Source: Acidobacteriota bacterium
GTDB lineage: Bacteria > Acidobacteriota > Terriglobia > Terriglobales > SCQP01
DNA: 64,000 bases
NCBI GenBank assembly: GCA_021789895.1
Contig: JAJYIU010000018.1
Coordinates: forward strand, 1-64,000
Direction of reading: 5' to 3'
Within the stretch, counting starts at the first letter, position 1. Every line of letters starts with the position of its first letter. A program made the position numbers and the translations under genes. A model generated the notes under the pieces. The model ran no database searches and had not been told where the DNA came from. It saw only the letters and a list, made by a program, of their open reading frames with translations. Shown in pieces: positions 49,734 through 52,044 of this stretch.

Positions 49734-49931
49734 ATGGCTGAAGTACGGCTGCAGGAAGGTGAATCGTTGGAAAACGCCTTGCGGCGTTTCAAACGCAAAG
49801 TGCAGCAGGAAGACATCATCAAAGAAGTCAAGCGGCACTCGTATTATCTGAAGCCGGGTGAAAAAATGCGCATTAAGCAGGCCCTCGCCCGCAAGCGCAA
49901 TCGCAAGAAGATCAAGCGCGAAGCGGATTAA
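49734..49931 (+). CDS. rpsU: 30S ribosomal protein S21
   Basis: S21 is a small basic protein of the 30S subunit that helps initiation on mRNAs. The 65-residue protein is full length, with EGESLENALRRFKRKVQQED and a Lys/Arg-rich C-terminus (ARKRNRKKIKREAD). In many bacteria rpsU precedes dnaG and rpoD. Here dnaG is 2.1 kb away on the opposite strand, with a zinc-ribbon protein and a peptidase gene between. A candidate promoter lies at 49625-49653, and a row of hairpins follows the stop codon. Confidence 0.96.
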   Translation: MAEVRLQEGESLENALRRFKRKVQQEDIIKEVKRHSYYLKPGEKMRIKQALARKRNRKKIKREAD

Positions 49932-49941
49932 ACGCACAGAC

Positions 49942-50149
49942 GCCGGAGCCGCTCGCCAGGGGCGGCATCCGGCGGCGGCTTCCGCCCGCTGTGCGCCCAC
50001 AGTCGCGGCAGCCGTCACGCTCTCCGGCAAGCCGCCGGAGGCGGGCGTCCCCTGGACCAGGGACGCACTCTGGCGCTGGCCGTCTTGGCGGCCAGTTGTA
50101 GTTCGGGCCCCCGCGGAGTCGGTTTGCCCTACCGGCAGGCCGACCTGCC
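49942..50149. ncRNA. Array of six strong hairpins, candidate structured RNA (strand unknown)
   Basis: Six consecutive stems are visible: 49942-49973 (GCCGGAGCCGC with its partner, 11 bp with one bulge), 49989-50002 (CTGTG/CACAG) and 50022-50040 (CTCCGGC/GCCGGAG). The others are 50045-50066 (GCGTCCC/GGGACGC), 50076-50095 (CTGGCCG/CGGCCAG) and 50134-50149 (GGCAGG/CCTGCC). Loops are 4-9 nt. No protein-coding frame with recognisable features covers the gap. It does not match RNase P RNA, tmRNA, SRP RNA or a riboswitch known to me. GC-rich DNA forms hairpins easily, so this is a hypothesis. Confidence 0.4.
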
Positions 50150-50257
50150 CCCCGCCGCGGGCAGGATTGCCAGCAAACCCCTCCGCACCCGTGCCTTTGA
50201 CGGCGCGGGGCTTGGTGCCGCCCAATGAGCAGCACCACCGGAAACGGAGGGGCGCTC

Positions 50258-50548
50258 ATGGAATTTCAAGACCGCCACTTAATCTGCCAGGATTGTGGCC
50301 AGGATTTTACTTTCACCGCCGGCGAGCAGGTCTTTTTTTTTCAGCGTAGTTTTCAACACGAACCCAAACGTTGTAAAAACTGTAAAGCCAAGCGTAACCA
50401 GGCGCTGGGATTGAAGGTCCGCACCCGCACGGAAACGATCGCGGTTTGCAGCCAATGCGGCAAATCCACCACGCTGCCTTTCAAGCCCACGCAGGGACGC
50501 CCGGTGTTTTGCCGCGAGTGTTTCCAACAGGTGCAGGAAAAAAGATAA
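50258..50548 (+). CDS. Small protein with four CxxC zinc-knuckle motifs
   Basis: The 96-residue protein has CQDCGQDFTFT, CKNCKAKR, CSQCGKS and CRECFQ, a paired zinc-ribbon arrangement of the zf_Tbcl/zinc-ribbon type common as CxxC small proteins in acidobacteria and delta-proteobacteria. Function is unknown; nucleic-acid binding is possible. The ATG at 50258 has ACGGAGG eight bases upstream and is preferred over 50225. It lies after the hairpin array downstream of rpsU. Confidence 0.85.
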   Translation: MEFQDRHLICQDCGQDFTFTAGEQVFFFQRSFQHEPKRCKNCKAKRNQALGLKVRTRTETIAVCSQCGKSTTLPFKPTQGRPVFCRECFQQVQEKR

Positions 50549-51754
50549 TTACGGCAGCCCCGCCAGATAAGCAATGATGCCGGGCGCATTCGGGCTGCCC
50601 AGGCCGGTCACGTAATCGTAGCCGGCGGCGGCGTTGCAAAGCGTGCCGCAGGTGCCGTTGCTGCCGTTGATGATGTCGTGAAAGTTGGCGGCATAGCTGG
50701 AGCCGGCGGCGGCATCGTAAACCGAATAATTCGTGCCTGACAGCGCGCTCTTGCCTTTCGCCGCGCGCTCCGAATTGACAATCGCAAACAGCGCCGCCCA
50801 CTGCGGCGAGCCGGCGCTGGTGCCGCCCACCTGAAACCAGCCGGCTTGTCCCTGATAGCGCACTGTGTCATACACCGCCACGCCGGTGTTCGGATCGGCA
50901 TCGTAGGCGACGTCGGGCACGCCGCGCACCCCGGCGCTGTCGTAGGGAATGGGCAGGTTCGATTGATACCCCGGCTCCGGTTCGTACTTGCTCTGCCCGC
51001 CGCCGCTGCCGCTCCAGGCGGTCTCGCCGAGATAGCTGCCGTTGCTGTTGGTGGTGATCGTCGTGCCGCCCACCCCGATCACTTCGCCGGATGCGGCCGG
51101 GTATTCCACCCCGCTGCCGCTGTCGCCGCTGGAAGCGGTGAAGGTGACGCCCGCCTGGTTGAAGTTGGCGTCGTAGCTGGTTTCGCCGCTGGATTCCCCG
51201 CCCCCCCAGCTCATCGAAACGCTGGTGGCGCCGTCGCTGACGGCCACCTGCACCGCCTGCAGCAAATTGGTGAAGCTGTTCGATGCCGCCTCCACCAGCA
51301 GGATATGCGCCTGCGGCGCGATCGCGTGCGCCCACTCCACATCCAGGGATATTTCCAGCGCCCAGCCGCTGTTGCTGTTCGGCTTCTTCCCGGCGGCGTA
51401 AACTTTCGTGAAACAGCCATTGCTGGAGTTGCAGGGCGCCAGGCCATAGTAGCTGTCGAAATAGTTCAGGTCGCTGGCGATGTTGGGGTCGTCGTAGGCG
51501 TCCACGAGGGCGATCGTCTCGCCCGCACCCTGGTTCGCGACCTGGCTGAATCCATAAAAATTGCGAATCGCCGCCGGACTCAATCCGGTGGGGCTCGATC
51601 GGGCCGGCCCTTTCAGATGGAACGGCGGGCGGGCGTAGCCCCGGGGCGGCAGTGTGGAATTTTTAATATGCAGCGGCGGAGTCGCCTGCGCCGCCAGCCA
51701 CAGGCTGCCGAAGATGCTGATCGCCACGCTCCACATCATCCGCTGGTATCGCAT
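50549..51754 (-). CDS. S53-family (sedolisin/kumamolisin) serine-carboxyl peptidase lacking the usual propeptide
   Basis: Sedolisins are secreted acid peptidases with a Ser-Glu-Asp triad. The 401-residue protein has a signal peptide (1-23). It shows Glu134 and Asp138 in WALEISLDVEWAH, the oxyanion segment SMSWGGGE, GTSAGSPQWA with Ser303, and a calcium-site-like GYDYVTGLGSPN near the C-terminus. Most secreted sedolisins have a propeptide of about 150-200 residues; here only about 30 residues separate the signal peptide from the mature-like SPAAIRNFYGF. The ATG at 51754 is chosen because the signal peptide begins there. Confidence 0.87.
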   Translation of the reverse strand: MRYQRMMWSVAISIFGSLWLAAQATPPLHIKNSTLPPRGYARPPFHLKGPARSSPTGLSPAAIRNFYGFSQVANQGAGETIALVDAYDDPNIASDLNYFDSYYGLAPCNSSNGCFTKVYAAGKKPNSNSGWALEISLDVEWAHAIAPQAHILLVEAASNSFTNLLQAVQVAVSDGATSVSMSWGGGESSGETSYDANFNQAGVTFTASSGDSGSGVEYPAASGEVIGVGGTTITTNSNGSYLGETAWSGSGGGQSKYEPEPGYQSNLPIPYDSAGVRGVPDVAYDADPNTGVAVYDTVRYQGQAGWFQVGGTSAGSPQWAALFAIVNSERAAKGKSALSGTNYSVYDAAAGSSYAANFHDIINGSNGTCGTLCNAAAGYDYVTGLGSPNAPGIIAYLAGLP

Positions 51755-52044
51755 GATATTGCCCCCGGGGAAGACAATCGCACAGCCTTTTGGCTCGAAT
51801 CCCACTCACATGAGCTCAGCCTAACTTCATCTTTTTGCGCTTTCAACTGAATTCAATCTCTTGCGCAGGATTCCACCCTTCCGGCACTACATCCCCTCCG
51901 GCTGGCCGGCTGAAAGCGGCACGGCCGCCGCCCCCTGCGCCGCGTAAGTACCCGTTTTCGGAAAGAATTAGTGCCCGGCTCGGCCGTTACGCTGATTGCC
52001 CAACTCTTTGCGCAGCCAATGGCAGTTGGCCGGCGGCTGGCGAT
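51755..52044. other. Intergenic region between the peptidase gene and dnaG
   Basis: No gene is supported. On the minus strand TTGAAA is followed 17 bp later by TAGGCT, a weak promoter candidate for the peptidase gene. No terminator is obvious after dnaG. Confidence 0.35.

Follow-up and report, generated by a model that had tools for sequence, protein, structure and literature searches.

A structured gap between rpsU and a zinc-ribbon gene in an Acidobacteriota genome and a candidate stem-GGGCC leader motif in its order

The window, a stretch of 64,000 nucleotides of genomic DNA from an Acidobacteriota bacterium, contains a gap of 327 nt between rpsU and a downstream zinc-ribbon gene in which hairpins follow one another closely, and this raises the question of whether the gap carries a structured RNA and, if so, to which of its two neighbors that RNA belongs. 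The initial annotation of the locus, made from the sequence alone, had described six tandem hairpins within 208 nt, the first beginning 10 nt past the rpsU stop (49931), and had proposed a candidate structured RNA that was either processed from the rpsU message or a separate RNA for the next gene. Inspection of the sequence and folding recovered all six hairpins in place and in order, with the first stem at that distance from the stop codon. Some stems are longer than had been described, since H1 has 6+7 bp round a one-base bulge and H2 consists of three stacked helices, and the series continues beyond the 208 nt with at least two more hairpins (50188-50209 and 50213-50237) before position 50258. 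The features of the gap and of the flanking genes are listed in Table 1; the start codon of the zinc-ribbon gene was placed by us at 50258, and the Pfam names of its families are zf_Tbcl and zf_Tbcl_2.

Table 1. Features of the gap between rpsU and the zinc-ribbon gene in the window
Feature	Positions	Strand	Basis
rpsU, 30S ribosomal protein S21 (upstream gene)	49734..49931	+	Pfam PF01165, E 1.3e-17; NCBIfam TIGR00030, E 1e-20
H1, terminator-like hairpin, 6+7 bp, one bulged base, without T run	49942..49973	+	fold
H2, three stacked helices (7+4+6 bp)	49974..50016	+	fold
H3, hairpin, 3+7 bp	50018..50043	+	fold
H4, hairpin, 7 bp	50045..50066	+	fold
H5, 8 bp, conserved stem-loop of the motif	50076..50095	+	fold, congener, relatives
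GGGCC block of the motif (GGGCC at 50105-50109), preceded by a 9-nt spacer	50103..50126	+	congener, relatives
H6, hairpin, 11 bp	50118..50144	+	fold; same hairpin in congener
CCCCTCCG, perfectly complementary to the Shine-Dalgarno region 50245-50252	50178..50185	+	sequence; pairing predicted only
H7, hairpin, 8 bp	50188..50209	+	fold
H8, hairpin covering the in-frame upstream ATG (50225)	50213..50237	+	fold
Shine-Dalgarno region CGGAGGGG of the zinc-ribbon gene	50245..50252	+	sequence
CxxC zinc-ribbon (treble-clef) protein (downstream gene)	50258..50548	+	PF13451, E 1.7e-17; PF23477, E 2.8e-16; TIGR04272, E 7.3e-17

The density of hairpins had been thought to exceed what base composition would give, and the shuffling that was suggested as a check agrees with this: no shuffled sequence folds as well as either the 208 nt (z -4.69, none of 200 dinucleotide shuffles as stable) or the whole gap (z -5.99, none of 100). 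Among 99 other 208-nt windows sampled along the 64 kb (plus strand, 20 shuffles per window), none matches the hairpin run in z or in energy. The impression that no frame in the gap looks coding is likewise borne out, as insertions and deletions relative to the congener ignore the frame. The structured gap is real and beyond chance. Its sequence matches only itself in its own genome, which does not fit a REP-like repeat, and with the Rfam covariance models, including those of riboswitches and ribosomal-protein leaders, there were no matches in the window at the curated score, the best sub-threshold E values being 1.3 and 4.5.

In the sole other genome of the genus that was examined (G001), 319 nt separate the two genes and fold at a z of -4.9, and when the two gaps are folded separately the order of the hairpins is identical. 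In the 5' part of the gap only 70 of 143 aligned columns agree (~49%), yet there is a hairpin at each place. At the position of H1 the congener has a 12-bp hairpin in which, by eye, an A-T pair is changed to C-G by a double substitution; H2 corresponds to a two-helix hairpin (22/49 columns identical), H3 to a 9-bp hairpin of different sequence, and H4 to a weak one of only 4 bp. Farther downstream, H7 is matched in place by a hairpin of different sequence (9/27 columns). Of the 27 aligned columns across the H5 stem-loop (50069-50095), 25 are identical; the GGGCC block is unchanged (24 of 24), and the stretch from H8 to the start codon (50213-50257) differs in a single column (44 of 45 identical); for scale, coding identity is 168/198 in rpsU and 226/273 in the zinc-ribbon gene. 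Because the stem-loop and the GGGCC block are both conserved round a spacer without one identical base (0/7 columns), these comparisons point to selection acting on the two elements, two genomes being few and this being the main weakness for the window.

The hairpin nearest to rpsU can be considered separately. H1 resembles an intrinsic terminator in being a GC-rich hairpin directly after the gene, 10 nt past the stop codon, and differs from one in that no T run follows it; there is no T-tailed plus-strand site in the gap, whereas some relatives do have a T run (at least four T in the 9 nt following the hairpin in 32 of 140 distinct gaps). Across 49 loci chosen from a range of genera, the longest stem within 75 nt of the rpsU stop has a mean length of 9.4 bp as compared with 5.9 bp after shuffling, and it reaches at least 8 bp in 39 of them. 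The family of the window also includes rpsU loci without an adjoining zinc-ribbon gene, and a hairpin was seen by eye in all 11 of these, four of which have TTTT. Because a long stem after rpsU is common and sister loci without the zinc-ribbon gene keep the hairpin, H1 is best read from these comparisons as an ordinary 3' hairpin of rpsU, although it lacks a T run in the window. The proposal of processing from the rpsU message fits H1 only.

The zinc-ribbon gene occurs in most of the order (221 of 249 genomes). Within the window's family it is confined to the window's genome and its congener, the remaining 12 genomes lacking it, and it is present in most of the sister family. Among the 150 loci that were kept, rpsU lies upstream in 142, and the median distance between the two genes is 280 nt. 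Beyond the order, an upstream rpsU is separated from the gene by 20-47 nt in six of seven loci and by 177 nt in the seventh, and 14 loci have no rpsU upstream; L049, which is outside the leader set, has a gap of 21 nt. In most other families of the phylum in which the S21 and zinc-ribbon genes adjoin, they form a tight pair. The simplest story is that of a tight ancestral rpsU-zinc-ribbon pair in which the gap grew in this order. The predicted fold of the zinc-ribbon protein has a mean pLDDT of 81 and a pTM of 0.41, and a Foldseek search gave no match at E ≤ 0.001 (best Z 3.4). To our knowledge, nothing indicates that it is a ribosomal protein.

The relatives used for the leader comparison were hand-picked for spread over genera, and the by-genus set comprises 52 loci from 51 genera, one genus being represented twice. 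The leader set excludes 14 loci, five of which duplicate the window or its congener, the other nine lacking a downstream zinc-ribbon gene or coming from outside the order; L003, L004, and four more rpsU loci without a zinc-ribbon gene were also excluded. Identical leaders were merged, and motif counts were made on leaders of at least 150 nt (n = 145). The motif was defined as GGGCC at 65-170 nt before the start codon, with 0-4 nt separating it from a preceding stem of at least 5 bp. GGGCC is found in this range in 127 of the 145 distinct leaders and is missing from its place in 18, as compared with a mean of 39.6 and a maximum of 50 in 40 shuffled sets; stem and GGGCC together occur in 101 (shuffled mean 5.8, maximum 13). 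On the reverse complement the corresponding counts are 66 and 7. These pooled counts are inflated by relatedness, which affects the by-genus counts less: of 50 leaders, 39 have GGGCC and 31 have stem and GGGCC, and 200 shuffled sets give means of 14.1 (maximum 27) and 2.5 (maximum 9), respectively. The motif lies a median of 118 nt before the zinc-ribbon start in the by-genus set (range 77-166). At other GGGCC sites within the 3-kb loci, such a stem accompanies 73 of 427.

Covariation was examined in an alignment of 51 of the 56 GGGCCGA leaders, from which L152 was omitted as too short and L084, L085, L090, and L107 by hand. The alignment was not fitted to the structure, and 91% of the stem cells nevertheless pair, 37 cells carrying a double change. 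On each of five measures, all 500 shuffles fall short of the real alignment, and the signal is destroyed when the pairing partners are slid against each other. The covariation that the initial annotation had proposed to look for in relatives is thus present in the leader stem, and its candidate structured RNA has the backing of the shuffles, of the same hairpin order in the congener, and of this covariation. At the level of sequence, the comparisons across the order show a stem that is kept while its sequence changes, a GGGCC that is kept as sequence, and a limited range of positions before one gene. The same data bear on the possibility that the motif acts as DNA, its inverted repeat serving as an operator for a transcription factor. 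There is indeed an inverted repeat upstream of the zinc-ribbon gene, and a GCAGTC hexamer in the linkers could be part of a promoter or operator; against this, the arms change freely with compensation and the loops vary in length, as expected of RNA pairing and not of a fixed DNA site, and the motif is kept in one orientation (7 on the reverse complement versus 101), which makes such an operator highly improbable.

The window itself fits the motif in position, its GGGCC lying 153 nt before the start codon, and departs from the strict definition in spacing, because in both the window and the congener the 8-bp stem is separated from GGGCC by 9 nt and not by 0-4 nt. The covariance model R1, which represents GGGCCGA-type leaders, matches neither of them; it matches 3 of 82 loci at E < 0.001, all of the GGGCCGA type. 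GGGCC is cheap at 75% GC, and the membership of the window consequently rests on where the motif lies, which genes flank it, and how conservation is distributed in comparison with a single congener.

The motif follows the zinc-ribbon gene. L007 and L202 keep it although no rpsU is present in the ~3 kb examined, and paralogous zinc-ribbon copies elsewhere in the genomes are without it in seven of seven cases and have another kind of leader. These paralogues (L195-L201) have a promoter-like GCTGTACA stretch close before the start in six of seven, the exception being L200. When R1 was run across 60 genomes, the strongest matches in G020, G034, and G040 were zinc-ribbon leaders. A riboswitch-like regulon was considered and rejected, six other good R1 matches that were inspected being read as chance: five overlap open frames, and the one in the genome of the window lies between ORFs. 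Because the paralogues lack the motif and the top R1 matches are zinc-ribbon leaders, the pattern suggests control of one gene and not of a regulon.

These distributions can be set against the view that the gap holds nothing beyond the usual hairpins of a 3' end, which would serve rpsU in a GC-rich genome as a tandem terminator or as RNA-stabilizing elements and would have no part in regulating the next gene. H1 fits such a series, and the sequences of H2-H4 are not conserved even between window and congener. This view would not account for a conserved core in a limited range before the zinc-ribbon start with GGGCC kept as sequence, for the two loci that retain the core without a nearby rpsU, or for the paralogues that lack it, and the window has no T run; we regard it as unlikely. 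Less likely still, in our judgment, is that the gap encodes a distinct small RNA acting in trans. The stem is compact and covarying, the gap is ~280 nt long, and where relatives have a terminator after rpsU a new promoter must lie in the linker. In the window, however, nothing resembling a terminator lies between the motif and the gene, the motif remains before the zinc-ribbon gene at loci where no nearby rpsU is seen, and no Rfam match was found, so that this proposal too is highly improbable. The initial annotation had envisaged a separate RNA for the next gene; the conserved part does appear to belong to that gene, most simply as its 5' leader and not as a separate RNA.

A leader of this kind could act on translation through the Shine-Dalgarno region. 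In the window, predicted folds with and without the CCCCTCCG pairing differ by ~1 kcal/mol or less and both pair the Shine-Dalgarno region, which is therefore predicted to be hidden by either of two near-equal pairings. This prediction is for the window and is not general. Blocking of the Shine-Dalgarno region by the GGGCC core was rejected as a general mechanism, because the duplex between the core and the ribosome-binding region (-13.0) is weaker than with permuted partners (-13.9) in the 132 of 147 leaders that had the anchor. The accessibility of the ribosome-binding region in 67 leaders is not lower than with shuffled leaders (0.355 versus 0.370, p 0.31), and whole leaders across the order are not unusually stable (mean z -0.5). 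In a genus-level group (A3; 23 of 25 sequences, L097 and L098 being left out), a helix and a hairpin over the Shine-Dalgarno region have one strand in common, and the pairs are well kept. Covariation of the helix is weak (four pairs with double changes, a value reached by 80 of 500 shuffles), that of the hairpin is absent, and RNAalifold preferred another structure; in view of these results no two-way switch is claimed.

A metabolite riboswitch or an RNA thermometer controlling the zinc-ribbon gene would agree with the long leader and with the two alternative folds of the window that both cover the Shine-Dalgarno region. The conserved core is small, however, and no Rfam riboswitch matches; the ribosome-binding region is not generally hidden, and the element is not found before other genes, the strongest matches in GGGCCGA-type genomes being zinc-ribbon leaders. 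On balance such a sensor seems rather improbable, if somewhat less so than the operator or the small RNA. The possibility that GGGCCGAAYCC is tRNA-like was weighed by eye and abandoned.

Among the explanations, we consider it reasonably probable that the gap consists of a 3' hairpin of rpsU followed by a long 5' leader of the zinc-ribbon gene with a stem-loop-GGGCC core that acts in cis. The rpsU message would end at H1, the terminator-like hairpin; the long leader would act post-transcriptionally in cis, its stem-loop and GGGCC being recognized by a trans-acting factor, and expression of the zinc-ribbon protein would thereby be set apart from that of S21. We interpret the motif as a lineage-specific, gene-specific cis-regulatory RNA that may act post-transcriptionally. 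That the factor is the zinc-ribbon protein itself, in an autoregulatory loop, is a guess. The fuller proposal, of a new order-confined class of cis-regulatory RNA in Acidobacteriota that is read by its own zinc-ribbon protein and arose when a terminator and a leader split an ancestral gene pair, is offered tentatively and with some doubt.

For the leader, the closest known systems are ribosomal-protein leaders and two structured RNAs of the same phylum. The present leader resembles ribosomal-protein leaders, such as the set of PMC7247131, in being structured, gene-specific, confined to a single lineage, and adjacent to a ribosomal-protein gene; it differs in preceding the zinc-ribbon gene and not rpsU. 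The terms S21, rpsU, and Acidobacter- do not occur in the main text of PMC7247131. Acido-1 and Acido-Lenti-1 (Weinberg et al. 2010, PMC2864571) are also computationally found structured RNAs from this phylum, listed in that paper as not cis-regulatory. Both are in Rfam, whereas the window has no Rfam match to either, nor do 14 relatives at E up to 1. No description of the leader was found in the open-access literature, including by term in the available text of PMC2864571, PMC11109978, PMC8632094, PMC7247131, and PMC12316311, and the stem-GGGCC leader motif is apparently undescribed before, as far as open-access listings and term searches show. If the cis-regulatory reading is true, a common and little-studied soil phylum gains its own regulatory RNA open to experiment, linked to an uncharacterized zinc-ribbon protein that travels with S21, and the locus becomes a small case study of the splitting of a two-gene pair in which each half gains its own control.

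Several minor features of these loci were also noted. The convergent gene on the minus strand at 50549-51805 has a sub-threshold match to a subtilisin-like protease family and no Pfam match. A sigma-54 promoter was sought in the leaders and rejected, the strict pattern occurring in 0 of 150. Of 37 linkers separating the rpsU hairpin from the motif, 11 contain GCAGTC (expected ~0.75), for example those of L067, L068, L081, and L089, often close to a GCATT stretch, and the hexamer may belong to a promoter or operator of the zinc-ribbon gene. In the window, the ATG at 50225 within H8 is in the zinc-ribbon frame 33 nt upstream of the start codon, and it is kept in the congener.
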